DNA of 64,000 nucleotides from the NCBI RefSeq assembly GCF_038023995.1, contig NZ_CP150660.1, positions 2,168,501 to 2,232,500 on the forward strand, written 5' to 3'. Position numbers and translations under genes: made by a program. The notes beneath the pieces are model-generated. The model searched no databases, had not been told where the DNA came from, and saw only the letters and a program-made list of their open reading frames with translations. This DNA comes from Polaribacter atrinae. GTDB lineage: Bacteria; Bacteroidota; Bacteroidia; Flavobacteriales; Flavobacteriaceae. This document shows, one piece after another, positions 8,331-59,400 of the stretch. Position 1 is the stretch's first letter. The number at the start of each line of letters is the position of its first letter.

Positions 8331-8368
8331 TGTTTTATTACCCTGTAAATATAGTAAATTACCTTAAT

Positions 8369-8382: not shown

Positions 8383-8383
8383 G

Positions 8384-8407: not shown

Positions 8408-8517
8408 TTATTTACACAAAATACTGTGCTGCTATTTTAATTTTACTCAAAAAAAAGTCTAAATTTTATTAAATCAACAAAATAGATGCAAAACTCAATT
8501 ACAATTAAATCAAAAAC

Positions 8518-9843
8518 ATGAATAAAAAAATAATAATCTGGTCTTTAACAACTGCACTAGCAGGTTTCTTGTTTGGTTTTGATACAGTTGTTATTTCTGG
8601 TGCTGAAAAAAAACTTCAACTAATTTGGGAATCTACAGATATGTTTCATGGATTGGTAGTTATTGGTATGGCATTATGGGGTACAGTCTTTGGGGCAATT
8701 TTTGGAGGAATACCAACTAATAAAATTGGTAGAAAAAACACCTTAATATGGATAGGTGTCCTTTACACAATATCTGCAATTGGATCTAGTTTAGCTAATG
8801 ATCCTTGGACTTTTGCTTTATTTAGATTTATTGGAGGCCTAGGTGTTGGAGCATCTACAATTGCAGCTCCAGCTTATATCTCAGAAATTGCACCCGCAAA
8901 AGATAGAGGTAAATTAGTTGGCTTATATCAATTTAATATTGTGTTTGGTATTTTAATCGCTTTCTTTTCTAATTATTTATTAAATAATATTGGTGAAAAT
9001 GCCTGGAGATGGATGTTAGGTATAGAAGCAGTGCCTGCAATTATTTATACTTTAATGATTTTATCTGTACCTAAAAGCCCTAGATGGTTATTAACCAAAT
9101 CTAAAGAAGATGAGGCTAGAAAGGCTTTAAAAATTATTAATCCAAAATTAAACTCAAATGCTTTAGTTGAAGAAATCAAACAAGAGATGAAAGATACGAT
9201 ACCTAATGAAAACATCTTTCTTAAAAAATACAGATTCCCTTTAATCTTAGCTTTTTTAATTGCCTTTTTCAATCAATTATCTGGTATTAATGCATTATTA
9301 TATTATGCTCCAAGAATATTAGAAGAAGCAGGTTTAGGAGAAAGTACTGCCATGTTAAGTAGTATTGGTGTTGGTGTTACAAATATGCTATTTACATTAC
9401 TTGGTATATTTTTAATAGATAAATTAGGTAGAAAACAACTAATGTATATAGGCTCTTTTGGTTATATTATATCATTATCATTAGTTTCTGCTGCCTTCTT
9501 TTTTAACTGGGAAGGAACTTACATGCCTATCTTCTTATTTATTTTTATTGCAGCACATGCAATCGGGCAAGGCACTGTAATATGGGTTTTTATATCAGAA
9601 ATATTCCCCAATCATTTAAGGGGTTCAGGACAATCTTTTGGTAGTTCTGTACATTGGGTATTAGCAGCAGTTATTCCTTCATTAGTACCGGTATTATTCT
9701 CTACAATTGGGGCTAGTGTTGTCTTTCTATTTTTTGCAGTGATGATGGCCATACAATTACTATTCGTAATCTTTATGATGCCAGAAACTAAAGGTGTTAC
9801 ACTAGAGGAGCTAAGTAAAAAACTAATCAAAAATAAAAATTAA
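8518..9843 (+). CDS. Sugar porter family MFS transporter
   Basis: 441-residue, 12-helix inner-membrane sugar:proton symporter of the sugar porter family. Visible signatures: GFLFGFDTVVISGA in helix 1, NKIGRKN in the loop after helix 2, SEIAPAKDRGKLVGLYQ, the mid-protein PKSPRWLL, QLSGINALLYYAP in helix 7, DKLGRK, and MPETKGVTLEEL at the C-terminus. First gene of the sugar operon, 110 bases from the operators and only 4 bases before the GH32 gene, so it probably imports the fructose that GH32 releases. The substrate is inferred from context. Confidence 0.9.
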   Translation: MNKKIIIWSLTTALAGFLFGFDTVVISGAEKKLQLIWESTDMFHGLVVIGMALWGTVFGAIFGGIPTNKIGRKNTLIWIGVLYTISAIGSSLANDPWTFALFRFIGGLGVGASTIAAPAYISEIAPAKDRGKLVGLYQFNIVFGILIAFFSNYLLNNIGENAWRWMLGIEAVPAIIYTLMILSVPKSPRWLLTKSKEDEARKALKIINPKLNSNALVEEIKQEMKDTIPNENIFLKKYRFPLILAFLIAFFNQLSGINALLYYAPRILEEAGLGESTAMLSSIGVGVTNMLFTLLGIFLIDKLGRKQLMYIGSFGYIISLSLVSAAFFFNWEGTYMPIFLFIFIAAHAIGQGTVIWVFISEIFPNHLRGSGQSFGSSVHWVLAAVIPSLVPVLFSTIGASVVFLFFAVMMAIQLLFVIFMMPETKGVTLEELSKKLIKNKN

Positions 9844-9847
9844 GCAA

Positions 9848-11431
9848 ATGAAATTCAAAAAACTAACTTTTATAACTCTTGTGTTGCTTGTATTTTTTAA
9901 CTGTAAAAAAACAGTAGAAACTAAAGAAAAAGTTTCTAAAACTTATACAGAAGAAGAACTTTACAGACCTAACTTTCATTTTACGCCAAAAAAAGCTTGG
10001 ATGAATGATCCTAATGGCATGTTTTATTACAATGGTTACTATCATTTATATTTTCAATACCATCCAGATAGTAATGTTTGGGGTCCTATGCATTGGGGAC
10101 ATGCAATTAGCACAGATATGATTACCTGGTCAGAGCAACCTATTGCTATTTATCCTGATGAACTTGGAACCATTTTTTCTGGAAGTGCGGTTGTAGATAT
10201 TAGCAATAGCTCTGGATTAGGAGAAGTTGAAAAATCTATTCCAATTGTTGCTATGTACACGAACCATAAAGATTTTGGTAACGGAAAGGTTAAACAGGTA
10301 CAAAGTATTGCTTACAGTAATGACGAAGGTAAAACTTTTAAGAAATACGAAAACAACCCGGTTATAGACAACGATACTATTAAAGATTTTAGAGATCCAA
10401 AAATTACTTGGGATGAGGATAGACATAAATGGATTATGTCTCTAGCAGCTGGAGATAAAATAATGTTTTACGATTCTAAAAATTTAAAAAACTGGAACTT
10501 ACTTTCAGAATTTAAAAAAGATGAAAATTCTAAAGATGGAGTTTGGGAATGTCCAGATTTATTTAAACTACCAATTAAAGGTACAGAAGAATTTAAATGG
10601 GTATTATTTGTAAGTGTTGGAACTGGTGGTCCAAATGGTGGAAGTGCAACACAATATTTTATTGGAGATTTTGATGGTAAGAACTTTAAAATTGATAAAG
10701 AGTTTGAAAAAAACTTAAAAGAAAATCATACGTATTGGTTAGATTTTGGTAAAGATAATTACGCAGGTGTTTCTTGGTCTAACGCAAGAACAAAAGATGG
10801 TGCTAAATTAATGATTGGTTGGATGTCTAATTGGGATTATGCAGTAAAAGTACCAACAGAAACATGGAGAAGCGCAATGACAATTCCTAGAAAAGTAGCA
10901 CTTAAAAAAGATGATAATGGTTATCGATTAATTTCCAACCCTGTAACAGATTTAAATAAATACAGAGGCACCAAATTTAAAAAAGAAAATATTTCTGTAA
11001 ACGGGAATACAAAAATTATAGGTTCAGAATCTATTGATTTATCTAGTTCTGAAATAAAGTTTAATATAAACAATTTAAATGATAAAAGCTTCACTTTTAA
11101 ACTATCTAACAAAGTAAATGACTCACTTTTATTTGGATATGATAATGCTAAGAATTCTTTTTTTATTGATCGTAAAAAATCTGGAAAAATAAATTTCTCA
11201 GAAAAATTTGCAGATAAAATTTCTTATGCTCCTAGAACATCATCTAATAAAAATTTATCAGGAACAATATTAATAGATAAAACCTCTATAGAATTATTCT
11301 TTGATGATGGAGAAACTGTTATGACAGAAATATTTTTTCCAAACAAACCCTATTCAACCTTTTCTATAGAAACTAATAATCAAGAATTACTTCTTGATAA
11401 CATCGAATTAAATCAATTAAACATTAACTAA
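9848..11431 (+). CDS. GH32 fructan hydrolase lipoprotein (levanase/inulinase/invertase type)
   Basis: 527-residue glycoside hydrolase family 32 enzyme that removes fructose from beta-fructans or sucrose by a retaining mechanism. The catalytic triad is visible: nucleophile D54 in WMNDPNG (51-57), transition-state stabiliser D184 in FRDP (182-185), acid/base E235 in the EC motif (235-236). The five-bladed propeller spans about 40-350 and the beta-sandwich about 370-527. A hydrophobic N-terminus followed by C19 suggests a lipoprotein held in the cell envelope. Second gene of the operon, 12 bases before susC. Levan, inulin or sucrose preference cannot be decided here. Confidence 0.93.
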   Translation: MKFKKLTFITLVLLVFFNCKKTVETKEKVSKTYTEEELYRPNFHFTPKKAWMNDPNGMFYYNGYYHLYFQYHPDSNVWGPMHWGHAISTDMITWSEQPIAIYPDELGTIFSGSAVVDISNSSGLGEVEKSIPIVAMYTNHKDFGNGKVKQVQSIAYSNDEGKTFKKYENNPVIDNDTIKDFRDPKITWDEDRHKWIMSLAAGDKIMFYDSKNLKNWNLLSEFKKDENSKDGVWECPDLFKLPIKGTEEFKWVLFVSVGTGGPNGGSATQYFIGDFDGKNFKIDKEFEKNLKENHTYWLDFGKDNYAGVSWSNARTKDGAKLMIGWMSNWDYAVKVPTETWRSAMTIPRKVALKKDDNGYRLISNPVTDLNKYRGTKFKKENISVNGNTKIIGSESIDLSSSEIKFNINNLNDKSFTFKLSNKVNDSLLFGYDNAKNSFFIDRKKSGKINFSEKFADKISYAPRTSSNKNLSGTILIDKTSIELFFDDGETVMTEIFFPNKPYSTFSIETNNQELLLDNIELNQLNIN

Positions 11432-24679: not shown

Positions 24680-27600
24680 TTGAAAAGTTTTTTTAACAAA
24701 ATATTTTTATTTCTTGCTTTTATTTTCATAGCAAATACAGCTCTATATGCACAAACAGATAGAGATACCACTACAGTAAAAAATGACACGCTACAGTTAA
24801 GATATAACTTTAAAAAAGAGCAAACGGGTGGATTGTTTTTAGATTACCTGGCAGAGAAAGAAATTATATTTGATAAAGATTTAAACAGGTATGTAATTGT
24901 AGAAAAAATAGGCGATTATTATACAAAAACACCTATTTATCTCACGCAAAAAGAATACGCAGATTATCGTTTAAGGCGAGATATGACGCAGTATTACAAA
25001 GACAAAGTAAGTGCTACAAACTCTAAGAAAAAAGGATCTAAAGAAGCTCAGAAAGACTTATTACCAACGTATTATGTAAAATCTGATTTATTTAAAACTA
25101 TTTTTGGAGGAAGTGAAATAAAAGTAACACCTACCGGAAGTTTAAATTTAAAATTAGGTTTTATTTATCAGAATACAGAAAACCCACAATTATCTGAAGA
25201 AAACAGAAGTAGTTTTACGTTTGATTTTGATCAACAAATTAACGCAAGTATTCGTGCACAAGTAGGTACACGTTTAGATTTTACAGCAAATTACGACACA
25301 CAATCTACTTTCGATTTTCAGAATTTAGTAAAAATTGGTTACGAGCCAACAGAAGATGATATTTTACAAGGAATAGAAGCTGGTAATATTTCTATGCCCA
25401 TTAAAAACTCATTAATTAATGGGGCTCAAAGTCTCTTTGGGATAAAAACACAGTTAAAATTTGGTAACACCAATATAACCGCTGTTTTCTCACAGCAAAA
25501 CTCAGAAAGTACAACAACAGTTTCAGAAGGTGGTGCTTCTATACAAGAGTTTCAATTAAAGGCTACGGATTACGATAATGACCGTCACTTTTTCTTATCT
25601 CAATATTTTATAGACAACTACGCAAATTCACTTAAAAATTATCCATTAATTAATAGTCAAATTAATATTACAAGAGTAGAAGTTTGGATAACCAACAGAA
25701 ACTCAAGTACAGAAGATTATAGAAGTATTGTGGCTTTAGCAGATATTGGAGAATCTGATACCGATGTTTTGGTAAATCAAACAGGAGAAGTACAACCTAC
25801 AAATCCGCCAACCACAACCGGTGGAAACATACCAACAAACGAATCTAACAATTTATCTGATTTACTAACTACAACTAGCGGAATTAGAAGTATTTCTACC
25901 GTAAATAGTACCTTACAACCTTATAACATGAGCGAGGGTACGGATTATTCTGTATTAGAAAATGCAAGAAAATTAAGCTCTAGCGAATTTACTTTAAACT
26001 CTCAATTAGGTTTTATCTCTTTAAATAGTAGATTAAATGATGGTGAGGTTTTAGCTGTTGCTTATGAATATACAATTGCTGGTGGAGTTTCTGGAAGCAC
26101 AAAAACGTCTTTTAAAGTTGGGGAATTTTCTAATGATGGTATTCAAACTCCACAAACTTTAGCTGTAAAGTTATTACGTAGTGAGATTTTAAAAACAAAA
26201 AGAGATAGAGTTGTTGGTGGTGTTACTATTGAAGAGTCTTTTCCTACCTGGCGTTTAATGATGAAAAACGTGTATGCCTTAGGTACTTATCCATTATCTC
26301 AAGATGGTTTCTATTTCGAAATTCAATATAGAGATGACCAAACAGGTATTTCTTCTAATGTTTTACAAAACTCAAACACAGCAGGGATTCCTAACTTGCC
26401 GTTAATACAAGTTTTTAAATTAGATCAATTAGACCAAAGTCAGTATAGATCTCCAGACGGATATTTTGATTATGTAGAGGGCATTACTGTTAATTCTACA
26501 AACGGATTTATCTTTTTTCCTGAACCAGAACCTTTTGGTAATGATTTGGTACAACAGAATACCAATGATGTTGGTTTAGATGAGACTGTAGACAATAACT
26601 ATTTATTTAAAGAACTCTATTTAAATACAAAAGTAAACGCGCAAAACAACTATCAAAATAAAGATAAATACTATTTAAAAGGATATTTTAAATCAGAAAA
26701 TTCTGGAGGAATACCAATTGGAGCTTTTAATGTACCTAGAGGATCTGTTACAGTAACCGCAGGTGGAAGACAATTAGTAGAAGGGGTAGATTATGTAGTA
26801 GATTACCAAGCAGGACGTGTACAAATTATAGACAGTGGCTTGCAAGCTTCTGGAACACCAATAAGTGTTTCTACAGAAAACAACGCTGTATTTAATCAAC
26901 AACAAAAAACATTTATGGGAGTAGATGTTGAACATAAGTTTTCAGATAAATTTATTATTGGAGCAACCATTTTAAATGTAAATGAAAAGCCTATTACTCC
27001 TAAAGTAAATTTTGGTTCAGACCCAATAAACAACACCATGTTTGGGGCAAATATAGATTACACAACAGAAGTACCTTATTTTACAAAATTAGCTAATAAA
27101 TTACCTTTTGTAGATACAGATGTCCCGTCTAACTTATCGGTTAGAGCAGACATGGCATACTTGCTTCCTGGAACACCAAGCGGAATTGATGTGGCAGGTG
27201 CTGCAACCTCTTATATAGATGATTTTGAAGCTTCTCAAATACCTATTAGTATCTTATCGCCATTAGATTGGCATGAAGCAAGTACTCCAAAATATTTTCC
27301 TGGTTTTAATGGTGATCAAGAAGATTTATCTTACAACTACCAAAGAGGAAAATTAGCTTGGTACAATGTAGATCAAATTTTTTATGGAGCTGGAGATACC
27401 CCTGCAAACATTAATGCTGCAGAACTTTCTAGAGCAGAAACAAGACAGATTAATTATAGAGAATTGTTTCCTAATGTTCAGTTAGACATTACACAGAATT
27501 CTGTAATAAGAACTTTAGATTTAGCCTATTTTCCTTCAGAAAGAGGTTCTTATAATTTAGATACTGGTATTAACGTAAAGGCAGACGGAACTTTCTCTGA

Positions 27601-30600
27601 TCCAGAAAATAGATGGGCAGGAGTTATGAGGTCTTTAACAACCAACAATTTTGACCAAGCAAATGTAGAATATGTTCAATTTTGGGTAATGGATCCTTAT
27701 GAAAACTATTCAATTACAGAAGCAGAAGGTTTGCCTATTGGCATGAATCCTGAAAACACATCAAACCAAGTTGGAGATTTATATATAAACTTAGGTAATG
27801 TTTCAGAAGACATCTTAAAAGACAGTCGTAAAATGTATGAAAATGGTTTATCTGAAACTGGTGGAGACTTAAATACAGCAGAGACAACTTGGGGTAAAGT
27901 ACCAACAAACCCATCTATTATTTATGCATTTGATGAAAATGATGAATCTAGAACCAACCAAGATCTTGGTTATGATGGTTTAAATGATGCTGAAGAATTT
28001 TCTAAGTACAATGCAACCATTCCTAACTTTAGTAAATTAAATCCTAATGATCCTGCATCAGATAATTTTCAATATTTTAGAGGAAGTGAATTAGATGCAA
28101 ACCGTGCTTCTATTCTTACCAGGTATAAAAATTATAACAATACACAAGGGAATTCACCAACCTTAAATCAATCTACAGAAAGCTACCCTACTTCATCAAC
28201 AACCTATCCAGATGTAGAAGATATTAATAAAGATCAGACCATGAATACCGTAGAAAGTTACTACGAGTATAAAGTTTCTATGAATAGAAATGATTTGGTT
28301 GTTGGAAAGAATTTTATTGTTGATAAAAAAACAACAGATGTAACTTTAGAAAACGGAGCAAACCAAACAACAACTTGGTATCAATTTAGAGTCCCTATTA
28401 GAAGCGGAACACCTGTAAATGGTATTTCAGATTTTAATAGTATTCGTTTTGTTAGAATGTTTTTAACTAATTTTAAAATGCCTGTTGTAATTCGTTTTGG
28501 TGAGTTAGACTTGGTACGTGGAGATTGGAGACGTTATACAAAAACTTTAGACGAATCTATTTCAACTCCAGTAGATTTAGATGAAAACGAATTAAAAGAC
28601 TTTGAAGTTGGTGTTGTAAGTATAGAACAAAATGAAGGAAGTTATATACAGCCTCCAGGAATAGAAAGAGAACAATTACAAGGTAGTACTAGTATACAAT
28701 TACAAAATGAACAATCTGTTACCTTAAAAGTAAATAATTTACCTGCAAATGAAACCAGAGCAATTTATAAAAACATCAGCATAGATTTAAGACGATTTAA
28801 AAATTTAAAAATGTTTATGCACCTTCAAAAAAATGAAGGAGCACTTGCAATTAATGATGATGATTTTTCTGCGGTTATAAGATTAGGTACAGATTTAGAT
28901 GACAATTTTTATCAAATAGAAATGCCTTTAAAAGTATCTCAAAACGGTACTTCTGCTTTAGATATTTGGCCAGAAGCAAATAATTTAGATGCTTTTCTAG
29001 AAACTTTTGGATTGGTCAAATTAGAAAGAGACAGAGTTGGAGTTGCCATTACAGACATCTACACCTCTACAGAACAAGATGCAGAAATACCATATACCAT
29101 TTCTGTAAAAGGAAACCCAACGTTAGCAGAATTAAAAACAATTGTTTTAGGAGTTAAAAATAAAACAACTTCTCCTATTAGTGGTGAGGTTTGGTTTAAT
29201 GAGTTGCGTTCTTCTGGTTTTGATAATGAAGGTGGTTGGGCAGCTGTTTTAAATGCCGATGCAAATTTTGCAGATGTAGCAAATATTTCTTTATCTGGTA
29301 GCATGTCTACAGTTGGTTTTGGTAATGTAGAAGACAGAGTAGGCCAACGTAGTTTAGATGAAACAAAACAATACGATGTTGCTACTACTATAAATTTAGG
29401 TAAAGTTTTAACCCCTAAAAAATGGGGAATTCAATTGCCAATGAGTTATAGTGTTGGTGAACTTTATATAGACCCAAAATACGATCCTCAGTTTCAAGAC
29501 GTAGAATTAGCAGATGCTTTAGGTGAAAATGAAAATAGTGAATTCTCTAGAGATTATACCAAAAGAACAAGTATCAGTTTTACAAACGTAAAAAAGAATA
29601 GAAACCCTAATTCTACCAAAAAACAAAAATTTTATGATGTAGAAAACTTAGCAGTTTCTTACGCACACAATAAAGAGTTTCAAAGAAATTATAACATCAA
29701 AAAACGTATTAACGAAAGTGTAAGAGCATCTGCTTCTTATAATTTTAGTTTTGATTCTAAACCAATAGAACCTTTTAAAAATAATGATTCTATTTTTAAA
29801 AGCAAATATTGGCAACTTCTAAAAGACTTTAATTTTAATCCAATTCCTAAAACTTTTGCCGTTAATTCTAGTATCAACAGAAATTATAACGAACAACAGT
29901 CTAGAAATTTAGTTGCAGGTTTATCTGCACAACCAGAATTAAAACAACGTAGATTTTTATTCGATTGGGATTATACTATTGGTTTCGATTTAACAAAATC
30001 GTTACAAGTAAACTTTAATGCCACCAACAGCTATATTTACGATACTTTTGGTAGCGATGATGAAATACAAGTTTTTGATGACTTCTTTAACACAGGAAGA
30101 GCAAATCATTATCATCAAGCATTAAACGGTACCTATAATTTACCAATAGATAAAATTCCGTTTTTAAAGTTTATAAAAGCAGATTATGCATACACCGCAG
30201 ATTTCGATTGGCAAGCAGCTCCACAAAATACAATAAACGTTAATGGTGTTGATGTACCTTCTGTAGAACTGATAGGAAACGTTATTCAGAATGCAAATAC
30301 ACACAATTTAAATACTACTATTAATTTTGATAGCTTTTATAAAGGGCTAGGTTTCGAAAAGTTATTATTAACTAAAAATCAACGTAAAAGTACAAAAGGA
30401 GAAAAAGGTGATAATTTACCAAGAACTCCAGGAAGAGTTAAACAAAATAAAAAATTATCGATTGGTAAAAAGATTTTAAAAGGCACTTATGATATTGTAA
30501 CTTCTGTAAAACAAGGAAAAATAAGTTACTCAGAAAACAATGGTCAATTATTACCTGGTTATACGGAAGATGTTGGCTTTTTAGGCGGTGCTCCTACTTC

Positions 30601-31792
30601 TTTTGCTTTTGGTAGTCAAGTAGATATTAGAAATAAAGCTTTAGAACAAGGTTGGTTTGTAAGCAGAAATAATGGTGATGAGTATTACAGTAAAACCTAC
30701 AGTAAAACTCATTACAATAAATTAGATTATACTTTTACTTTAAAACCTATAAAGGATTTAAACATAGATGTTAGAGGTAATAAAATACAAACAAGAGATA
30801 TCTCTCAACAATTAGATTTAGTATCTGGTAGCAATCAATTTGAAAATACACCTTTCTTTGAAACAGGAAACTTTAGTACTAGTTACTCTATGGTTTCTAC
30901 AGCATTTACAGATGGTGATGTTTTGTTTCAGAACTTAAGAGATTATAGAAGTATTATTTCTAACAGATTAGCTACAGAAAACGAAGTGCCAGCAAGTGGT
31001 TTTGGTACCAATAGTCAGCAAGTTTTATTACCTGCCTTTGTAGCTGCTTATTCTGGTAAGAGTCCAGATAAAGTAAATACAGGTTTGTTTAGAGATGTTC
31101 CTATTCCTAACTGGACTTTGCGTTATAATGGTTTAATGAAGTTTAACTTCTTTAAGAAAAACTTTAGCAACTTTGTAGTTTCACATGGTTATAGATCTTC
31201 TTATACAGTATCTAGTTTTACCAACAATTTACAGTATGATTCAAACAACCCGTATGCTAACTTAAATGTTGCTAACAATTACGAATCTGAATTGTTAGTA
31301 TCTGCAGTTACTTTAGTCGATGAATTTTCTCCACTAATTAAATTAGACATGAAAATGAGAAACTCTTTCTCTTTAAGAGGAGAAATAAAAAGCGACAGAA
31401 CACTTACTATGAATTTTAACAATAGTACTTTAACAGATATTTCTGGGACAGAATATATATTTGGAATGGGCTATGTTTTTGAAGACGTAAAGTTTAGCAC
31501 TCGTTTTACAGGTAAAAAACAAACACTAAAAGGAGACATTAATTTAAGAGCAGATGTATCATTAAGAGATAATATTACACAAATTAGGTCTGTAGATGAA
31601 GATAATGATCAAATTAGTGGTGGACAAAAACTTTTTTCTATTAAATTTACCGCAGATTATAGATTAAGTAATAGTTTAACAGCATCATTCTATTACAACC
31701 ATCAAACATCTAGATATGCAATCTCTACCACTTTTCCTAGACAAGCGATTAATGGAGGATTTAATATTATTTATAACTTAGGAGGAAACTAA
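24680..31792 (+). CDS. sprA: SprA, type IX secretion outer-membrane translocon
   Basis: 2370-residue giant barrel protein. In Flavobacterium johnsoniae SprA is the 36-strand translocon pore of the type IX secretion system and is needed for gliding. Here: start TTG; signal peptide at 1-25 (ends LYAQ); repeated transmembrane beta strands throughout, with segments typical of the family such as [15 protein letters not shown] and the [13 protein letters not shown] region ([11 protein letters not shown]), and a C-terminal barrel ending [10 protein letters not shown]. Length matches known SprA (about 2400). The organism therefore probably has type IX secretion and may glide; the other T9SS genes are not in this window. 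Cotranscribed with ruvA and gcvH. Confidence 0.95.
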
Positions 31793-46623: not shown

Positions 46624-47361
46624 TTACTGTAAACTAAAAGCAATGGGTAAGTTATATCTTACTTTAACTGTTCTGCTATTTTGTATCCCAGGTTTAAATT
46701 TTGGCAATTTCTCAATAACTCTTAACGCTTCTTTCTCTAAAGTTTTATAAGCAGTTCTTATTTTAACATCAACAATCTCTCCTTTATCATCTATAACAAA
46801 CTGCGTATGTATTTTATGCACACCTGCACGTAAACCTATTTCATTTGCCAATTCCACATCAAAATTACGCTGTACAAACTGTTTCATTTTTTTCTCAAAA
46901 CAAACTTTATTTTCTTCTTTAGATAAATTTTCACATCCTTTAAAAACGGGTGCATTCTGTATGTTGACAAAATCTACATCTTCTACAAAAGGCTCATTAA
47001 CTTTAACCTCTACAACACTCTCTAAATCAATTAAAACAGGATTTTCTATTTTAACATCTTCAAAAACAGTTTCTATAATATTGTTTTTTCCTTTTACTAC
47101 TTCATCAACAATAAAAGGTGATGCTTTTATCATTGTTACTTTAGGAACAACTTTAGGTTCTTTTGTAAATAAGACCTCTGTATCTGGCGCTACATATACT
47201 ACTTTACTGTTATCAGATTCAAAAACAGCTACTGTTTTCTCTTCAGTTTGGTGCTCTAGTGTTATAAAAACAATAAAGAGTACTAATACCAACCCTAACT
47301 GAGTAAAAATGTTAGAGAATTTTTCTAATTGTTTTGTTGGTGATTTTTTGGCGTTTTTCAT
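46624..47361 (-). CDS. TonB-family energy transducer (copy 2, diverged)
   Basis: 245-residue protein: anchor helix at about 19-38 (IFTQLGLVLVLFIVFITL), a periplasmic linker without the Pro-rich track of the other copies, and a TonB C-terminal domain (about 140-245) with the Cys pair in APVFKGCEN...NKVCF and the ending VRYNLPIAFSL. ATG 47361 is chosen over an upstream start because MKNAKKSPTKQLEKFSNIFTQ aligns with the N-termini of the other two TonB proteins here. Its C-terminal domain is the closest match in the window to the N-terminal domain of the barrel protein at 43168. Confidence 0.88.
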   Translation of the reverse strand: MKNAKKSPTKQLEKFSNIFTQLGLVLVLFIVFITLEHQTEEKTVAVFESDNSKVVYVAPDTEVLFTKEPKVVPKVTMIKASPFIVDEVVKGKNNIIETVFEDVKIENPVLIDLESVVEVKVNEPFVEDVDFVNIQNAPVFKGCENLSKEENKVCFEKKMKQFVQRNFDVELANEIGLRAGVHKIHTQFVIDDKGEIVDVKIRTAYKTLEKEALRVIEKLPKFKPGIQNSRTVKVRYNLPIAFSLQ

Positions 47362-47414
47362 AATTCTAAAGTTTTTAAATGTTAAAACTCTGTTAAAACA
47401 ATTAGCATGCCATA

Positions 47415-47443
47415 AAAAAAGCATCAAATTTCTTTGATGCTTT
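47415..47443 (-). terminator. Terminator of the DUF3109 gene
   Basis: Stem aaagcatcaaa (47418-47428) with tttgatgcttt (47433-47443); on the minus strand a T-run follows. Confidence 0.8.
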
Positions 47444-49458: not shown

Positions 49459-50193
49459 ATGGACATTAAAAAAAACCCAAAACAACAGTTAGAAAACTAC
49501 AGTAAAATTTTCTTACAAATAGGGTTAGTATTAGCCTTATTTATTACTTATACTTTAATAGAGCATAAAACATACGAAAGGAATGATTTAAAAAGCTTAG
49601 GACAAGCAAACATGGTAGACGATATGAAGGAAGACATTCCCATTATTGAGATGCAGGAAGTAAAACCACCACCAAAAAATACGCCTCCACCAATTGTTGA
49701 GCAAATTACGGTTGTAGAAGATGAAAAAGAAATTGAAGAAACCGTAATAGAATCTACAGAAACCGATGAAACAGTAGGTATAGTTGTAAACACCGATGAT
49801 ATTGTTGAGATTGAAGAAGTAGAAGAAGTGGTAGAAGATATTCCTTTTATATTAATTGAAAACGTACCTGTTTACCCAGGTTGTAAAGGAAACAATAAAG
49901 CTTTAAAAGACTGCTTTACAAAAAAAGTAACAGAGTTTTTTGGTAGAAGATTTGATGTTAATTTAGCAACAGAATTAGGCTTAGAGCCAGGTAAGAAAAA
50001 GTTATTTGTAATTTTTACCATTAACAAACAAGGTAAAATAGCAAATGTAAAAGCAAGAGGTCCACACCCTAGATTAGAAAAAGAGGTTGTAGAAATTATT
50101 AATGCTTTACCTACAATGACTCCAGGGAAACAAAGAGGTACCCCTGTAGGTGTTAGCTACAGCATACCTATTACATTTGAAGTTAGAACATAA
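49459..50193 (+). CDS. TonB-family energy transducer (copy 3)
   Basis: 244-residue close paralogue of the gene at 32607: the same N-terminus (M-x-IKKNPK...LENYSKIF-x-QIGLVLALF), a proline spacer KPPPKNTPPP, the same acidic stretch (VEDEKE-x-EETVIESTETDET) and a TonB C-terminal domain with Cys pair VYPGCKG...LKDCF and ending PVGVSYSIPITF. Single gene with its own terminator. Confidence 0.9.
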   Translation: MDIKKNPKQQLENYSKIFLQIGLVLALFITYTLIEHKTYERNDLKSLGQANMVDDMKEDIPIIEMQEVKPPPKNTPPPIVEQITVVEDEKEIEETVIESTETDETVGIVVNTDDIVEIEEVEEVVEDIPFILIENVPVYPGCKGNNKALKDCFTKKVTEFFGRRFDVNLATELGLEPGKKKLFVIFTINKQGKIANVKARGPHPRLEKEVVEIINALPTMTPGKQRGTPVGVSYSIPITFEVRT

Positions 50194-50591: not shown

Positions 50592-50954
50592 TTAAGCGTT
50601 CTTAATTGCTTCAATTAATTCATCAAAATCTTTTGCTTTATCAAAAAAAGCAAACGCTCCGTATTTAAAACATGTTTTTCTTAGCTCTGTACTTATAGAA
50701 AAAACAAAAACTTTAGTTTCCTTTTTATTTTCTTGTAGTATTCTTAATAGCTCTATTCCATTTCCATCAGGTAATTTTAAATCGAGTACTATTAAATCAA
50801 AATTAGTTTTGTTAAAAATAGAAATTGCCTCTTGTAAAGATTTTGTTATGTAGATATCCTTTAAACGGTCAATCTCTTTAGCAGCATCCAATATATTCTT
50901 CCCTATAAAAGGGTTATCTTCTACTATTAATAAATTAAGGAATGTTTCTTTCAA
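50592..50954 (-). CDS. Stand-alone response regulator receiver domain
   Basis: 120-residue single-domain receiver without an output domain. Acidic pair E12-D13, phospho-acceptor D58 in DLIVLDLKLPDGNG, conserved Ser in VFVFSIS, and the Lys in FFDKAKD. Start TTG. It lies 116 bases after the NarL-type regulator on the same strand and could share its message. As a single domain it may act as a phosphate sink or relay for the giant kinase nearby, or bind another protein. Confidence 0.88.
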   Translation of the reverse strand: MKETFLNLLIVEDNPFIGKNILDAAKEIDRLKDIYITKSLQEAISIFNKTNFDLIVLDLKLPDGNGIELLRILQENKKETKVFVFSISTELRKTCFKYGAFAFFDKAKDFDELIEAIKNA

Positions 50955-51070: not shown

Positions 51071-51724
51071 TTAAATATCTAATGAAGTTAACCCTTCTTT
51101 AATAGCATATTTTGTCAATTCAGGAATCGTATATAAATCTAATTTTTTCATAATATTATTTCGGTGTACATCTACCGTTTTAGGACTTAAAAACAAAATC
51201 TCTCCTGTTTCTTTAGAAGAGCGCCCTTCTGCAATTAACTGCAATACTTCTTTCTCTCTAGAGCTTAACTGTGTTTTCTCTATAGATTTTATTTCTTTTA
51301 GTACCGACAGAAACTCTTGATTAATATCTTTTGAAAGATATTTTTTATTCTGCATTACCGTACAAATTGCCGTAATCAACTCATCTGAATCACCATCTTT
51401 TAACAAATAAGCAAAAGCACCTGCTTTAAACATACTCTGTATAAATTGCTTACCAGAATGCATAGAAAGACCAATTACCTTTATTTCTGGATTGTTTTTA
51501 TGAATTTGTCTTGTTGCTTCTACCCCATTTAAACCAGGCATTGCTACATCCATAACAACAACGTTTGGCAAAAGTTTTGGACATATCTTTATAGCTTCCC
51601 TACCATCAGAAGCTTCACCAATTATATGCATATTAGACCTTTGCTCTATAATATTTCTTAGACCATCTCTTAACAGCTTGTGATCATCAACTAATACGAT
51701 TTTAATTTCTTTTAAATAAGTCAT
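51071..51724 (-). CDS. NarL/LuxR-family response regulator
   Basis: 217-residue two-domain regulator. Receiver at about 7-125 with D13-D14, phospho-acceptor D59 (VVVMDVAMPGLNG), and a K in AYLLKDGDS; LuxR-type helix-turn-helix at about 150-212 (LSSREKEVLQLIAEGRSSKETGEILFLSPKTVDVHRNNIMKKL). Its ATG shares one base with the stop of the kinase gene (TAATG), so the two are translationally coupled and surely partners. DNA targets unknown. Confidence 0.94.
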   Translation of the reverse strand: MTYLKEIKIVLVDDHKLLRDGLRNIIEQRSNMHIIGEASDGREAIKICPKLLPNVVVMDVAMPGLNGVEATRQIHKNNPEIKVIGLSMHSGKQFIQSMFKAGAFAYLLKDGDSDELITAICTVMQNKKYLSKDINQEFLSVLKEIKSIEKTQLSSREKEVLQLIAEGRSSKETGEILFLSPKTVDVHRNNIMKKLDLYTIPELTKYAIKEGLTSLDI

Positions 51725-54700
51725 TAAGATAAAGGTATAAAAATTTTAACAGTTGTACCTGTATTTATTTTTGATTGTATTGTAAATTTCCCTTGAATAT
51801 TTCTAATACGTTCTTGAACTGTAAACAAACCAAAACCAGATCCAGAGTGGTTATGTAGGTTATTTAAAATATCGGTATTGAAACCAATACCATTATCTGT
51901 AATAAAAATATCTAACCCATGTTTATTTTTATCAAGGTCTAAAGTTATTAAAGAAGCATTTGCATATTTTATTGCATTGGTTAATACTTCTTGAATACTT
52001 CTATACAACAAAATAGATGTTGCTTCATCAAGCTTAACACTATCTACCTCACTATTAACTACACAAGCAACCTTGTGCGTTGTTTCTACATTATCAAACA
52101 ACCAATTTAGTGCCTCAATAATACCTAATTGATATAATACAGGTGGTGAAAGTTCATACATAATCTTACGGCTATTTTCTAAAGCTTCAGAAATATGAGT
52201 TTCTATAAAGATTAAATCTTCATCAATCATTTTTAATTGTGGTCTTTTTTTCAATTCATTAATTTTCATTTTTGAAATAACTAAAGACTGACTTAAATGA
52301 TCATGTATATTTGTAGCAATTTCTTTTTTCTGTTTTTCTTCTATCAAAGTCATTTCTGTAGTCAATTTCTGAAGTGATGTTTGATATTCTTCTATTTTTT
52401 GCTTTGCTAACACCCATTGAGTAATATCTCTAGCGGATGTAACATAATAGCTAATTTCGTTATTTTTATAGATAGGAGATGATAAAAACTCTAACCAAAC
52501 AAAATGACCATCTTTATGGAGAACTCTAAAAGAAAAAGCTTCTACATTAAAATCATTAAACAACTTTTCTTTCATGGCTAACTTTAATTCTTGAATATCA
52601 TCTTCATGAACGATACTAAAAACTTGTTTCCCTAAAAAATCTAATTGATCATAACCTAATAAATTTTTTATAGAAGGACTAATATATCTAAAAGTACTAT
52701 CTGGTTCTTGCAAGCAAATTAAATCATTGGAGTTATCCGTTAATATACGGTACATCTCTTCTGCTTTTTCAATTTCCTTCCTTATTCTTTTTTGCTCTGT
52801 AATATCTTGACTCGTTCCTTTTAAACCAATCAACTCTCCATTTTTACTATATACAGGTCTACAAATAGACCTGGTAGTTTTTTCTACATTATTAGGCAAA
52901 CTAATTCTAAATTCAACATCATAAGGGATTCCTTTATCATAAGCCAACGATAGAACATTCTTAAAAAACTCTTGATCCTCTTTATGAACTCTACCTAGAA
53001 TAGTAGACTCTTCTGGTGCCGTTTTACTGATATTAAAACCCCAGATACGAAACATTTCATCTGACCATTCTGATTCTTTTGTTAAAAACTTAAACGACCA
53101 ACTACCTACTTGAGCTAACTCTTGCGCTTCTTTTAAACGATTTAAAGATTCCCTTTTTTCTAATTCAGCATCTTTTATACTTTGAACGCTTTGTATACTA
53201 ACAGGAACTGTTTTTTGCTCTATTAAATTTTGAGGAATGGGGATTGAAAGTAAGGCAGCAAACTCATCACCTTTTAAGGTTTTATAATTTACTTCTGATG
53301 TAAATGTTTTTTCCTTATTCCAAACTGATACGATAAAGTCTACAAATACATTATGCACTCCACTACCAAATGTATTTTGGATTTTTCCGTCTAAAAAGTC
53401 TTTTTCACTTTTTGCTTTAAACAGTTTTACTGTGGCTTTATTCACTTTGTTAATAACCACCTTGTCTAGTATAGAAAACAATACCTCAGGTTGCTCCTCT
53501 AAATAAATTTTTAAATTAGGTATTTTAAGCTTTCTAAGCTGATCTAATTGTTCTATAACCGCAGTTAAATCACCATTCCAAACAGAAACCGCTGCATTAT
53601 CAAAGAGGTTTCTATACCGCTCTGTTATTACTAAATGTTGTTTCTCTATTTGTTTTCTTTCAGTAATATCTTGAAAAACACCTCTTCTTCCTATAATTTC
53701 ATTTTGCTTATTATAAACTGGCTGAACCACATTTCTAACCCAAACTTCTTCTTTATTATGAGTGATAAACTTTAACTCATGATCAAAAGGAGTACCATTT
53801 AGTATTAATTCTTGAATAGCTTTTTCATACTTTTCTAGAGAGGCGTCGTCAAAAATACCTCTAATATCCTCACGTGATGGAACCCCTTTATCTCTATCGA
53901 ACCTTAAAATATCATAAACATGATCAGACCATATAAAAGTGTCTGTTAGACTATCATATTCTTGATAGCCTATTTTAGCTATTTCACTTGCCTTTCTTAA
54001 GGAATACTCCTTTTTTTCTAAAAGTTTTAAAGTATTTTCAATTTTTTGTTTAGACTGTTCTAATTCTTGCTGTACTTTTTTAGAATCTGTAATATTTTGT
54101 AAAACACCTCTTTTACCAACAATTTCATTTTGTTTATTATAAATAGGTTGAGCTACATTTCTTACCCAAATAATTTGATCCTTTAAGTTCGTAAATTTCA
54201 ATTCTAAATCGTAAGAAACACCATTAGCAGTAAGTTTTCTAGTTGCTTCTACAAATTTTTCTTGAGACTTTTTATTCATCCTCTTAAAAAGTGCTACTTC
54301 TGGTAAAACTCCATCTTTAGGATTTGTTCCAAAAATATGATGAACATAATCTGACCAAACAGCAGTACCTTTTAACATATCGTGCTCCCAATACCCTATT
54401 TTAGCTACTTTACTAGCCTCATTCATAGAGTGCTTCCTTTTTCTTGACAATTTTAAAGAAGTCTGAATCTTTTCTTTAGAAATCTCTAATTCTATTTGAG
54501 CATTCTTAGCCGCTGTAATATTATTGACCAACCCTCGTCTACCAATAATTTCATTTTGTTCGTTATAGATAAGCTGAACCACTTGCCTTACCCATACTTC
54601 CTTATTCTTGTTATTGATTAATTTTAATTCAATATCATAAGGTGTTCTATTTAAAGTAAGATCTGTTGTAGCTTGCTCTAATTTTGCCTGAGAATCTTTA

Positions 54701-57321
54701 CCATAAAAAGCCACCATACTTTTGCGAGAAGGAATACTATCTTGTGGAGAAAAGCCATAAATTTCATACACATAATCAGACCATGTAAAACTATCGGTTG
54801 CAATGTCATACTCCCAATATCCTATTTTAGCCACTCTACTTGACTCAGTTAAAGAATAATCTTTTTTCTCTAAAAGGTCTAATGAAGATTGAATCTTTTG
54901 CTTGGACAACTCTAACTCTAATTGCGCCTTTTTCCACTCTGTAATATTTTGCAAAACACCTCGTCTGCCAATAATTTCATTTTGTTTATTATATATAGGC
55001 TTAGCTACATTTCTTACCCAGACTTCTTCTTTTTTTCTATTAATTAACTTTAAAACAACATTATAAGGAGTCCCTTTTGTATTAAGCTCTAGAGTAGCTT
55101 GTAATAATCTATCTAGCGATTCTTTATCACAGACTTTAATTGCTTCTTTATGTGGCGGAACTCCATCATTCGGGGTTAATCCATACATCTGATACACATA
55201 ATCAGACCAAGTATAAGTATCTGTAGCAATCACATATTCCCAATACCCTATTTTGGCCATTTTACTAGATTCATGTAAAGAATAATCCTTTTTTTCTAAC
55301 ATTTCTAAAGAGATTTGAATATTTTCTTTAGAAAGTTTTAAGGCTAATTCTGCTTTTTTAGAAGCTGTAATATTCTGTAGAAGACCTCTTCTTCCAATAA
55401 TTTTATTTTGATTATTATATACAGGTTGTACTATATTTCTAACCCAAATTTCTTCTTTATTTTTATTAATTAATTTTAATTCAATATCATAAGAATTTCC
55501 TTTTAAACCTAAATCCGTATTGGCCGATAAGATTTTTTCTTGAGATTCCTTATCAAAGAATTCTACAATTTCTTCTCTTGGAGGAATTCCTTTTTTAGGA
55601 TCTAATCCAAAAATCTCATAATGATAATCAGACCATATAAAATTAACATGCTCATTGCTATACTCCCAATACCCAATTTTAGCCATTTTACTTACCTCAT
55701 CTAAAGCGTAGCTCTTTTTCTCTAACAACTCTAAAGATGTTTGCATCTTTTTTCTAGAAAGCTCTAACTCTAACTGTGCCTTTTTAGATGCTGTAATATT
55801 CTGCATAACACCTACTCTTCCTATAACTTCATTTTGTTCGTTATAAATAGATTTTGCTACAGTACGCTCCCAAACCACTTCATTTTGCAGGTTAATGAAT
55901 TTTAATTCAACATCACAAGAAACCCCTTTTACAGCAATTTCTTTAATAACTTGTTCTATTTTTTCTTGAGATTCTTTATCGTAAAATGAAATCAATTCTT
56001 TTTGTGTTGGAATTCCATCTTTAGGGTCTATTCCGTAAATAGTATACATATAATCAGACCACGTAAAAGTATCTGTTACAATATCATATTCCCAATACCC
56101 TATTTTAGCCACTTTACTTGCTTCACTTAAAGAATGTTCTTTTTTTTCTAACTCTTTTAAAGCATCTTCAATTTTATTCTTTGCTAAAACTCTTTGTGTA
56201 ATATCTCTAGCAGAAGTAACAAAATAACTAATTTTATCTGCCTTATAAACGCGAGAAGATGAAAATTCTAACCAAATAAAATGACCTTGTTTATGACGAA
56301 TTCGCAGCGGAATAGCATCAGAAACAATACCTTTACTAAACATTTTTTTTGTTAGCACTTCTTTTAGAAACTTAAGGTCTTCTTTATGAACAACACTAAA
56401 AACTTGTTTACCTATAAATTCTGATTGCTCATAACCTAACAACTTTTTTATAGAGGGACTAACATACCTAAAAGTACTGTTTGGTTCATGTAAAAAAACC
56501 ATATCATTAGAATGTTCCGTAAGTATACGATACATCTCTGTAGTTTCTTGAATTACCTTTTCTGCAGATTCAAATTTTTGTTTATACGTTAGTGGCTGAA
56601 AGACATCTTTTATCTTAAAAACCCTTGTTAATGGTTTACTTAAATCAAAAAACTTTAAATATATATAGAAAATAAGACTGTAAAAACCAGTAAAAACACC
56701 TTTAGAAATTAATCCCGCCTGTATAATACTACCTAGATTATCGGAATGCCAAAATGCAATAATTGAAAAAAATACAGTATCAAAACTTACCACTAGTAGC
56801 ATTGTTACAAAAATTTGCAAGAATAGGAATCTTATTTGTCTAGCTATAAATTCGAAAATTACTATTATTAACAAGGTATCTATAAGCAGCGCTACTATAC
56901 CAGTAAGTAAAACCCAAACACGACTATCAAAAAGATTAGTTAATACACTAAATGGCTTGTTAGCTGATATTTCATCTAAATTCCAACCAAACAATTTCAA
57001 AAGTACTATGACTAGTATGTTTACGATAAGTAAAGTATAGATAACTTTTTTTGTTTCGCCTGCATCCTCTTTTATATATATAATTAATAAAGCAAAAACA
57101 GTTACCGTAAATAAAATAGAAGAGCCTGGTGATACAAAAAAATTATTAGTAATTGAGACATAGACTGAGCTCGAAATAAACACCTGCAAAAATTGCAATA
57201 ACCCCAAACAAGCTAACAGTAGACCAATTCCTAACTTTTTTCGAAATCGAAATAACAATAATACTATAAAAGCAATTAAAGCACCCTGTAAAAACAAGAT
57301 AGCTACCTGAGTATAATTCAT
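51724..57321 (-). CDS. Giant multi-PAS histidine kinase (NarX/HisKA_3 type)
   Basis: 1865-residue membrane sensor kinase. Seven predicted membrane helices (about 1-225); PAS-A (263-382, YRILTEHSNDMVFLHEP); six tandem PAS/PAC units whose AKIGYW motifs begin at residues 405, 547, 689, 831, 973 and 1115, exactly 142 apart; a different domain (about 1235-1380); a seventh, diverged unit (AQVGSW at 1403); PAS-B (1523-1641), closely similar to PAS-A; then HisKA_3 with phospho-acceptor H1673 in NIHDHLSQ, and an ATPase domain with N1782 (N box), D1809 (DNGIG) and GSGFGL (1827-1832). The PAS units are joined by short helical linkers (LELELSKxKIQxSLxLLEKK). The NarL-type regulator is encoded immediately downstream. 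The signal is unknown. Confidence 0.94.
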   Translation of the reverse strand: MNYTQVAILFLQGALIAFIVLLLFRFRKKLGIGLLLACLGLLQFLQVFISSSVYVSITNNFFVSPGSSILFTVTVFALLIIYIKEDAGETKKVIYTLLIVNILVIVLLKLFGWNLDEISANKPFSVLTNLFDSRVWVLLTGIVALLIDTLLIIVIFEFIARQIRFLFLQIFVTMLLVVSFDTVFFSIIAFWHSDNLGSIIQAGLISKGVFTGFYSLIFYIYLKFFDLSKPLTRVFKIKDVFQPLTYKQKFESAEKVIQETTEMYRILTEHSNDMVFLHEPNSTFRYVSPSIKKLLGYEQSEFIGKQVFSVVHKEDLKFLKEVLTKKMFSKGIVSDAIPLRIRHKQGHFIWLEFSSSRVYKADKISYFVTSARDITQRVLAKNKIEDALKELEKKEHSLSEASKVAKIGYWEYDIVTDTFTWSDYMYTIYGIDPKDGIPTQKELISFYDKESQEKIEQVIKEIAVKGVSCDVELKFINLQNEVVWERTVAKSIYNEQNEVIGRVGVMQNITASKKAQLELELSRKKMQTSLELLEKKSYALDEVSKMAKIGYWEYSNEHVNFIWSDYHYEIFGLDPKKGIPPREEIVEFFDKESQEKILSANTDLGLKGNSYDIELKLINKNKEEIWVRNIVQPVYNNQNKIIGRRGLLQNITASKKAELALKLSKENIQISLEMLEKKDYSLHESSKMAKIGYWEYVIATDTYTWSDYVYQMYGLTPNDGVPPHKEAIKVCDKESLDRLLQATLELNTKGTPYNVVLKLINRKKEEVWVRNVAKPIYNKQNEIIGRRGVLQNITEWKKAQLELELSKQKIQSSLDLLEKKDYSLTESSRVAKIGYWEYDIATDSFTWSDYVYEIYGFSPQDSIPSRKSMVAFYGKDSQAKLEQATTDLTLNRTPYDIELKLINNKNKEVWVRQVVQLIYNEQNEIIGRRGLVNNITAAKNAQIELEISKEKIQTSLKLSRKRKHSMNEASKVAKIGYWEHDMLKGTAVWSDYVHHIFGTNPKDGVLPEVALFKRMNKKSQEKFVEATRKLTANGVSYDLELKFTNLKDQIIWVRNVAQPIYNKQNEIVGKRGVLQNITDSKKVQQELEQSKQKIENTLKLLEKKEYSLRKASEIAKIGYQEYDSLTDTFIWSDHVYDILRFDRDKGVPSREDIRGIFDDASLEKYEKAIQELILNGTPFDHELKFITHNKEEVWVRNVVQPVYNKQNEIIGRRGVFQDITERKQIEKQHLVITERYRNLFDNAAVSVWNGDLTAVIEQLDQLRKLKIPNLKIYLEEQPEVLFSILDKVVINKVNKATVKLFKAKSEKDFLDGKIQNTFGSGVHNVFVDFIVSVWNKEKTFTSEVNYKTLKGDEFAALLSIPIPQNLIEQKTVPVSIQSVQSIKDAELEKRESLNRLKEAQELAQVGSWSFKFLTKESEWSDEMFRIWGFNISKTAPEESTILGRVHKEDQEFFKNVLSLAYDKGIPYDVEFRISLPNNVEKTTRSICRPVYSKNGELIGLKGTSQDITEQKRIRKEIEKAEEMYRILTDNSNDLICLQEPDSTFRYISPSIKNLLGYDQLDFLGKQVFSIVHEDDIQELKLAMKEKLFNDFNVEAFSFRVLHKDGHFVWLEFLSSPIYKNNEISYYVTSARDITQWVLAKQKIEEYQTSLQKLTTEMTLIEEKQKKEIATNIHDHLSQSLVISKMKINELKKRPQLKMIDEDLIFIETHISEALENSRKIMYELSPPVLYQLGIIEALNWLFDNVETTHKVACVVNSEVDSVKLDEATSILLYRSIQEVLTNAIKYANASLITLDLDKNKHGLDIFITDNGIGFNTDILNNLHNHSGSGFGLFTVQERIRNIQGKFTIQSKINTGTTVKIFIPLS
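53578..56133 (-). repeat. Six tandem 426-base repeats inside the kinase gene
   Basis: Six in-frame units of 142 codons (residues 397-1248), each with an AKIGYW-type start, WSDY/H, a GIP/GVP turn, VELK/IELK, a VW-x-R strand and a NIT linker start. No indel disturbs the period. The units differ at many positions, so the duplications are not very recent, but selection kept the length. Confidence 0.85.
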
Positions 57322-57543: not shown

Positions 57544-59400
57544 TTACTCCACCGTAACCGATTTCGCTAAATTTCTTGGTTGATCAACATTCTTACCTAA
57601 CATTACAGCAACATGGTAGGATAATAATTGAAAAGGAATTGTAGTTAATAGCGGTGTTAATGCTTCTTCCGTCTCAGGAATTTCTATAACATGATCTGCT
57701 ATTTCTCTAACCTGAACATCTCCTTCTGTAACAATTGCTATAATTTTACCAGATCTCGATTTAATTTCTTGAATATTACTAACTACTTTTTCGTAATGAC
57801 CTTTATTGGTTGCAATTACAAAAATTGGCATGTTCTCATCAATTAAAGCAATAGGACCATGTTTCATTTCTGCTGCAGGATATCCCTCTGCATGTATATA
57901 TGAAATTTCTTTTAACTTTAAAGCACCTTCTAATGCTACCGGAAAGTTAAAACCTCTTCCTAAATACAAACAGTTTTTTGCATCTTTATATACAGCTGCT
58001 ATTTCTTTTACTTTTTCATCAATCTTTAAAAGCCCCTCTATTTTTGCCGGAATTAATTGCATTTTTTGCAAATACATTCTAAAAGCAGAGTCTGACATGG
58101 TTCCTTTAGCCTTAGCTAACTTTAAAGAAATTAATGTAAGAACTGTAATTTGGGTTGTAAATGCTTTTGTAGAAGCTACTCCAATTTCTGGCCCTGCATG
58201 TGTATAAGCACCTGCATGTGTTTCTCTAGCAATAGATGAACCTACAACGTTACAAATACCAAATACAAATGCTCCTTTAGATTTTGCTAATTTAATAGCC
58301 GCCAAAGTATCTGCAGTTTCCCCAGATTGAGATATTGCAATAACAACATCATTTGGTGTAATTATAGGGTTTCTGTATCTAAATTCAGATGCATATTCTA
58401 CCTCTACAGGTATACGTGCCATATCTTCTAATAAATACTCTCCAACTAAACCTGCATGCCAAGAAGTACCACAAGCAATAATGATAATTCTATTAGCATT
58501 CAAAAATTTATTTAAATTGTCATCTATTCCAGACATTTTAATAAGTCCTTCATTCGGTAACATTCTACCTCTATAAGTATCAATTATAGCTTTAGGTTGT
58601 TCATGAATTTCTTTCAACATAAAATGGTCATAACCACCTTTTTCAATTTGATCTAAACTCAGTTTTAATTTCTGAATATTAGTATCAACCATTGAGTCGT
58701 CTTTAATCTTACGGACTTTTATTTCTTTACCAATTTTAACAACTGCTAATTCTTCATCCTCTAAATAAATAGCATCCTTAGTATACTCTATAAAAGGAGA
58801 TGCATCAGAAGCAACAAAAAATTCACTATTATCTTTTCCTACTCCAATTGCAATAGGACTTCCTAAACGAGCAATAACTAATTCATTTGGTTTTGTTTTA
58901 TCAAAAACAGCAATTGCATAAGCTCCTACAACACTTGTTAGTGCTAATTGAACTGCTTTCCCTAATTTACAACCTTCGTTCTTTTTTACTTCTTCTATAA
59001 GGTTTACTAAAACCTCTGTATCTGTATCACTCTTAAAAACATAACCTCTAGATATTAGTTCTTTTTTTAAAGTGTCGTAATTTTCAATAATACCGTTATG
59101 TACAATAACTAATTCACCAGACTGAGAAATATGTGGGTGAGAATTTACATCATTAGGCACACCGTGAGTAGCCCAACGTGTATGACCAATTCCTATATTC
59201 CCTTTTTTTCTTTTTTCGTCATTATCTGTTATAGCTTCTAGATCAGAAACTTTTCCTTTGGTTTTAGAAAGATGTATTTCTTTTCCATCATACATCATTA
59301 TCCCAGAACTATCATACCCTCTATACTCTAATCTTTTAAGTCCATTTACAACTATTGGGTAAGCATCTCTAAAGCCAATATATCCAGTAATTCCACACAT
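57544..59400 (-). CDS. glmS: Glutamine-fructose-6-phosphate aminotransferase (isomerising)
   Basis: 618-residue GlmS, the first step to UDP-GlcNAc: glutamine plus fructose-6-phosphate to glucosamine-6-phosphate. N-terminal Ntn-amidotransferase with catalytic Cys2 (MCGITGYIG), RLEYRGYDSSG and THTRWATHG-like segment (GHTRWATHG); two SIS domains (about 290-430 and 460-600) with AISQSGETADT and GRGFNFPVALEGALKLKEISYIHAEG; C-terminal PRNLAKSVTVE. Length normal. Third gene of an operon with DUF4270 and the short glycogen synthase. No glmS ribozyme was seen upstream. Confidence 0.96.
   Translation of the reverse strand: MCGITGYIGFRDAYPIVVNGLKRLEYRGYDSSGIMMYDGKEIHLSKTKGKVSDLEAITDNDEKRKKGNIGIGHTRWATHGVPNDVNSHPHISQSGELVIVHNGIIENYDTLKKELISRGYVFKSDTDTEVLVNLIEEVKKNEGCKLGKAVQLALTSVVGAYAIAVFDKTKPNELVIARLGSPIAIGVGKDNSEFFVASDASPFIEYTKDAIYLEDEELAVVKIGKEIKVRKIKDDSMVDTNIQKLKLSLDQIEKGGYDHFMLKEIHEQPKAIIDTYRGRMLPNEGLIKMSGIDDNLNKFLNANRIIIIACGTSWHAGLVGEYLLEDMARIPVEVEYASEFRYRNPIITPNDVVIAISQSGETADTLAAIKLAKSKGAFVFGICNVVGSSIARETHAGAYTHAGPEIGVASTKAFTTQITVLTLISLKLAKAKGTMSDSAFRMYLQKMQLIPAKIEGLLKIDEKVKEIAAVYKDAKNCLYLGRGFNFPVALEGALKLKEISYIHAEGYPAAEMKHGPIALIDENMPIFVIATNKGHYEKVVSNIQEIKSRSGKIIAIVTEGDVQVREIADHVIEIPETEEALTPLLTTIPFQLLSYHVAVMLGKNVDQPRNLAKSVTVE

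Follow-up and report, generated by a model that had tools for sequence, protein, structure and literature searches.

A histidine kinase of Polaribacter atrinae with six tandem PAS units and inter-domain linkers that vary in steps of seven residues

In PAS-domain sensors, the output of the kinase has been reported to vary with linker length in a seven-residue cycle, and tandem PAS domains are described as following one another head to tail along a helical axis, where their torques may add (PMC6798134, PMC3466315; these papers, like the others cited below, are drawn on in excerpt). The passage of signals through long sensor proteins and their addition across many sensor domains have been probed on engineered two-sensor proteins, namely YHF (PMC6798134, PMC3466315). 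The subject of the present analysis is a putative sensor histidine kinase with six PAS_3 units of 142 residues, encoded in a window of 64,000 nucleotides from Polaribacter atrinae (contig NZ_CP150660.1, positions 2,168,501 to 2,232,500). Like YF1/YHF and NifL, it holds a head-to-tail row of PAS domains joined by what appear to be amphipathic helices. Those proteins, as the excerpts present them, are engineered or carry two tandem PAS domains, whereas the window kinase has six units of one type, and its relatives reach 10 or 11 units, with gain and loss of units and no measured off-phase linker (PMC6798134, PMC3466315).

Several other systems share part of this architecture. In the excerpted account of PadC phytochrome-activated diguanylate cyclases, linkers cluster at multiples of seven, with 54% of proteins fitting and 38% at -4, compared with 162 of 162 measured linkers in phase here; the PadC linker joins sensor to effector, whereas the linkers counted here join PAS to PAS (PMC9587094). 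PpsR (4hh2), a protein with three PAS domains, has helical extensions that fuse neighbouring PAS domains and join in oligomerisation, as would the rod proposed below, but it is a transcription factor with a hinge in a linker and not a kinase (PMC3949515). The S-helix, a helix of about 40 residues that also occurs between sensory domains, resembles the present linkers, and the ERT signature that its description gives for the central heptad is absent in 95 of the 95 linkers examined (PMC1592074). By sequence and fold, the closest solved tandem-PAS sensors are the Brucella LOV-PAS-histidine kinase (6ph4, 6pps) and FixL (8js5); unlike the former, the window kinase has no LOV cysteine motif and nine PAS-type domains. 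The heptad rule for tandem-PAS linkers and PAS kinases with many domains are already known. Among the literature matches listed, no title concerns this kinase or variation in PAS unit number at one locus, and neither a set of 162 linkers with none off phase nor a single locus whose unit numbers form a graded series, marked by traces of recombination in register, was met there. It is the strictness of the heptad rule together with the unit-number series at one locus that is unusual.

The array and its period

The open reading frame begins with ATG on the minus strand (51724..57321; all coordinates below are on this strand unless marked otherwise) and encodes 1865 amino acids. An original prediction, made from the letters of the sequence, had called it a histidine kinase with six PAS units at an exact period of 142 residues, and both calls hold. 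Domain and motif content identify the product as a putative HisKA_3-type two-component sensor histidine kinase: the C-terminal region (residues 1644-1865, 51727..52392) matches HATPase_c at 57.2 bits (PF02518, cut-off 26.4) and barely passes for HisKA_3 at 24.8 bits (PF07730, cut-off 24), and it carries the motifs HDHLSQ at 1673, NAIKYA at 1782, DNGIGF at 1809 and GSGFGL at 1827. When residues 381-1275 were shifted against themselves without gaps, an offset of 142 gave 371 identities in 753 positions (49%), compared with 4.7-9.4% at the remaining 25 offsets tried in the range from 130 to 155; offsets of 284, 426, 568 and 710 gave 38-50%.

The six units are u1 (residues 385-526, 55744..56169), u2 (527-668, 55318..55743), u3 (669-810, 54892..55317), u4 (811-952, 54466..54891), u5 (953-1094, 54040..54465) and u6 (1095-1236, 53614..54039). 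Compared in pairs, they are identical at 57-86 of 142 residues and at 59.9-73.5% of bases. AKIGYW stands at residues 405, 547, 689, 831 and 973 as predicted, and the sixth motif does start at 1115 but departs at one residue, reading IGYQE from 1117, with IGYQ where the others have IGYW. With a source genome in a single contig of 4.01 Mb, a divergence of 27-40% of bases between units and a longest exact run of 25 bases between aligned units, a repeat collapsed or expanded by assembly is unlikely.

Pfam PAS families cover most of the middle of the kinase. The array is preceded by PAS-A (residues 256-383, 56173..56556; PF00989 at 263-374) and followed by domain X (1241-1382, 53176..53601), which recurs in several relatives. 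For domain X, Pfam and PDB sequence searches gave no match up to an expectation value (E) of 1, and a single-sequence model, with a mean predicted local distance difference test score (pLDDT) of 49, was uninformative on its fold. A diverged seventh unit, u7 (1383-1515, 52777..53175), is matched by the unit model at 76 bits over 1387-1522 and reads AQVGSW at residue 1403, where the prediction had placed it. PAS-B (1516-1643, 52393..52776), recognised by Pfam and by its likeness to PAS-A, shares with the latter 76 of 127 aligned residues, in line with the claim that these two domains are duplicates of each other. The N-terminus carries a membrane domain of the VUPS type (vitamin uptake-like sensor; residues 18-222, 56656..57270), which matches PF20973 with an E of 2.2e-60 and 204.2 bits against a cut-off of 27; hydropathy peaks lie within residues 2-193.

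Linker lengths in the genus and beyond

The 142-residue period is made up of a core span of 101 residues and a linker of 41, the linker being counted from the I of the DIT that closes one core up to the G of the IGxW in the core that follows. Relatives were sought in 117 genomes at E up to 1e-60, with at most three candidates scored per genome; strong matches were found in 24, the window's own included, all in the same genus, and 29 stretches of relatives' loci were compared. When residues 761-1186, which cover three periods, served as the query, 2 of 397 family genomes matched at E up to 1e-50: that of the window and another from its genus. Looser cut-offs gave 64 of 395 phylum genomes (E up to 1e-15) and 8 of 299 family genomes (E up to 1e-18), and the matches beyond the window genome and its one genus mate are more distant arrays.

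Within the genus, counting units of at least 100 bits and spacings below 80, the linkers between neighbouring units (20 proteins) are 41 residues long in 69 of 81 cases, 34 in 10 and 27 in 2, and all 81 leave a remainder of 6 on division by 7. The core span in units of at least 100 bits is 101 in 101 of 111, 102 in 7 and 100 in 3. Unit spacing is accordingly 142 in 66 of the 81 pairs, 135 in 10, 128 in 2, 143 in 2 and 141 in 1; the spacings of 135 and 128 arise because linkers are shorter by 7 or 14 residues, those of 141 and 143 because cores differ by one residue. Variable spacing, which the original prediction had named as evidence against itself, is thus absent from the window array and present in relatives. 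Its statement that such strict spacing is unusual holds only in part: exact 142-residue spacing is found in those 66 pairs of the genus set, and the seven-residue rule for PAS linkers had already been published.

The same remainder was found in a distant set of 40 loci, nearly all from Bacteroidota, which comprised the 35 best-scoring loci of the phylum and family searches and 5 others and is therefore not a random sample. With hits below 15 bits and spacings outside 11-74 dropped, 83 of 83 linkers (34 proteins) leave a remainder of 6, being 20, 27, 34 and 41 residues long in 4, 70, 8 and 1 cases, respectively; as most are 27 long, many of them are not independent. Since the first models held linker columns, the count was repeated with a core-only model, under which core spans run from 97 to 103. 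All 96 genus linkers were again in phase (20, 27, 34, 41 and 55 residues in 1, 2, 22, 70 and 1 cases), as were all 66 of the distant set (20, 27 and 34 residues in 3, 58 and 5), which makes 162 of 162 measured PAS-to-PAS linkers; in each set 25 neighbouring pairs had no anchor, and the count takes in spacings below 75. The 34-residue linker from PAS-A to u1 in the window keeps the same heptad phase, although PAS-A is of a different type.

When the 81 units whose upstream linker was measured are placed on a tree, parsimony requires 10 changes of linker length, a rough count on a rough tree. Shuffled tip labels require 9-12 changes (mean 11.6), which leaves little correspondence between linker length and the branching of the units. 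If all indel lengths were equally likely, a change by a multiple of seven would be expected about once in 7, and ten of ten such changes by chance would be very unlikely. A pattern search found 23 shorter linkers, counting those of PAS-A, and in these the gap is best placed somewhere in positions 2-19 of the linker.

The seven-residue steps might have a mutational origin, in 21-base slippage or recombination between DNA repeats that code for heptads. The 81 linkers do contain nothing but 7- and 14-residue steps, and a shift of 21 bases scored highest of the seven shifts tested in two of four genes. The excess is nevertheless slight (identity of 0.32-0.36 at shift 21 against 0.31-0.33 at shift 20 in the four genes), and the linker DNA is far from a slippage-prone repeat, which makes this origin highly improbable. 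As an explanation of the steps, mutation is weaker than selection on helical phase.

Gain and loss of whole units

A comparison of repeat number across relatives, which the original prediction had proposed, revealed that the number varies between species by whole units and with traces of recombination. The locus can be followed by a neighbouring gene at 57544..59400, similar between species, which we take from its sequence to be glmS-like. Ten relatives adjoining this gene have 1, 2, 3, 3, 6, 6, 8, 8, 10 and 11 units, and the window has 6 (units of at least 100 bits; two glmS loci whose stretch lacked the kinase end were left out). In two relatives, G034 and G037, the units can be paired with those of the window: u1-u4, u5 and u6 correspond to u1-u4, u6 and u7 of G034 and to u1-u4, u7 and u8 of G037. 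Both relatives have additional whole units in two places, namely between the units that pair with u4 and u5 and beyond the one that pairs with u6.

Unit u8 of G034 is a chimera, resembling u9 of G037 and then u10 from a point between residues 1509 and 1513, and 126 of 132 informative sites fit this one switch. G034 would thus have lost one unit through in-register recombination between two similar stretches, a loss there appearing preferable to a gain in G037. The similarity of the window kinase to G037 likewise changes unit frame twice, once in the u4/u5 linker, where residues 943/944 are the best switch point (195 of 251 sites), and once in u6, between residues 1211 and 1214 (175 of 204 sites). 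Concerted evolution of the units was considered and rejected for the window, G034 and G037, since window units are 73-83% identical to a unit of G034 or G037 against 52-59% to the best unit of their own protein. G037 holds two closer unit pairs (80% and 72%), and 4 of 11 units of G029 and 1 of 6 of G039 find their closest match within their own protein; outside the window, G034 and G037 the matter is less clear.

The conservation between the window and G034 is 94% for the regulator beside the kinase, 89% for the kinase end, 68-80% for u1-u6 and 58% for VUPS. By a simple counting method, each of u1-u6 is under purifying selection, with a ratio of nonsynonymous to synonymous substitution rates of 0.15-0.27 against G034 and 0.15-0.35 between G034 and G037 (u6 over residues 1095-1220).

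These results bear on the view that the array is an inert spacer, whose 142-residue period was left behind by in-register unequal recombination and whose unit number drifts without effect. The chimeric unit of G034 documents in-register unit loss of just this kind, and the range of 1 to 11 units at the glmS locus and the few unit-specific positions fit as well. In-register recombination yields equal units, however, and not linker changes of 7 or 14 only; the phase common to distant arrays would be left unexplained, each of u1-u6 is under purifying selection, and the window units keep their identity in G034 and G037. An inert spacer is therefore unlikely.

In G029, a kinase frame of 3242 residues (L052:4866-14591, plus strand) carries the block of array, X, PAS unit and PAS-B twice in tandem, an arrangement that suggests how PAS-A and PAS-B types come to flank an array.

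A proposed sensor rod and its gene neighbourhood

The reading we favour, and consider probable, is that of a membrane-anchored two-component kinase with a modular sensor rod built on a dimeric coiled-coil spine. Two chains would pair in parallel, with each PAS core sitting beside the helical spine. Every linker, being 6 plus a multiple of 7 residues between fixed anchors, would bring in the next core at the same rotational phase. Signals from VUPS and the ligands or partners of the PAS units may act as twists of the spine, which would be summed and then relayed by way of X, u7 and PAS-B to the HisKA_3 helix; the latter would toggle between acting as kinase and as phosphatase on the LuxR-type regulator encoded next to it. 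With all units in phase, whole units could be added or lost by recombination without a change of phase at the array end.

Modelling of adjacent units, also proposed in the original prediction, is consistent with such a rod. In the model of u2-u4, helices of 35 and 37 residues connect the three PAS folds, and each linker is predicted to form one continuous helix, with block means of pLDDT of about 66-77 over the first. By E-value, the solved folds nearest to the model are the tandem-PAS sensors Brucella LOV-PAS-histidine kinase and FixL. An alpha-helix rises by 1.5 angstroms per residue; straight linker helices of some 36 residues would therefore measure about 54 angstroms each, and six units would exceed 300 angstroms. 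Of the original suggestion of a regular rod, the helical linkers are thus upheld by the model and by the single heptad phase, while nothing was found in support of the cooperative ligand binding offered alongside.

A number of observations weigh against this reading. The u2-u4 model was built on 4 sequences and has a predicted template modelling score of 0.55; towards the end of its second linker helix (model residues 291-310) block means fall to 57 and 62, with residues 302-304 below 50, and solved tandem-PAS structures fit it domain by domain only (root-mean-square deviation 18-20 over 238-252 residues). In 71 linkers of 41 residues, large hydrophobic residues occupy positions 10, 17, 21 and 24 (93-100%) and 31 (73%), but polar residues at 14, 28 and 35 leave gaps in the heptad pattern, which points to an amphipathic helix and not to a textbook coiled coil; the hydrophobic periodicity has a broad peak at 3.3-3.4 instead of 3.5. 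In a crude scan, whose lengths fall 2 residues below the actual distance from I to His, the distance from the last PAS domain to the catalytic histidine fell into five phases over 34 matches, 20 of them in one, so a phase lock through to the output is not established, and none is claimed down to the catalytic histidine. Natural phytochrome kinases, in the excerpt of their description, likewise have sensor-to-kinase linkers in several heptad registers (PMC11164954). As to ligands, a unit-specific conservation filter was passed by four unit positions only, which gives little sign of distinct pockets. A scan of the whole protein did not find the LOV flavin-cysteine motif, which we take to be of the NCRFLQ type, or indeed any NC dipeptide.

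The units might instead serve mainly as a docking scaffold, their PAS faces binding one partner many times and the phase setting the sides of the rod on which these faces lie. PAS domains also mediate protein contacts, and the repeats are alike, with no Cys or His position common to all six when u1-u6 are compared. Yet no partner was identified, the conserved neighbours on the output side being a regulator and a receiver only, and we regard such a role as quite improbable.

The original prediction had mentioned neither of these two neighbours, nor the VUPS domain, nor the variation in repeat number and linker length among relatives. The regulator (51071..51724), with a receiver (Response_reg) and a LuxR-type helix-turn-helix (GerE) domain by Pfam, overlaps the kinase stop by one base and is the presumed partner of the kinase. 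It adjoins the kinase in 26 of the 28 relatives' loci that hold the kinase end (a contig fetched twice being counted once), in two pieces in L061, and in 9 of the 10 relatives at the glmS-like locus; the two kinase loci without it are L058 and L059. A receiver-only protein of 120 amino acids (50592..50954; Pfam), which could be a competitor for phosphate or a second output, is encoded in 24 of the 28 loci and is kept in L058.

Variants of the locus include G050 (L054:3690-11430, minus strand), where VUPS (10693-11430) and the PAS-kinase portion (3690-10355) occupy separate frames, and L011:2218-9990 and L012:7998-15363, where a single regulator is preceded by a tandem pair of VUPS-PAS kinases. 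Elsewhere in the window lie a 2370-residue protein with SprA_N (PF14349), described as a motility related/secretion protein (24680-31792, plus strand), and, near the kinase, two proteins with a TonB C-terminal domain (46624-47427, minus strand, and 49459-50193, plus strand), the latter having a counterpart near the kinase in 4 of the 22 loci compared.

Taken together, the genus offers at one locus a natural series of kinases that range from 1 to 11 like units and have related output ends, and this series, along with a measured linker rule free of exceptions, makes the torque-addition model testable. A more tentative possibility is that of an 'accordion' sensor, in which units of several old types are added, lost and reshuffled in register, each coming in at the same rotational phase, so that their number and type tune gain or ligand repertoire. 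If true, one otherwise constant kinase-regulator pair would have been tuned across a genus.

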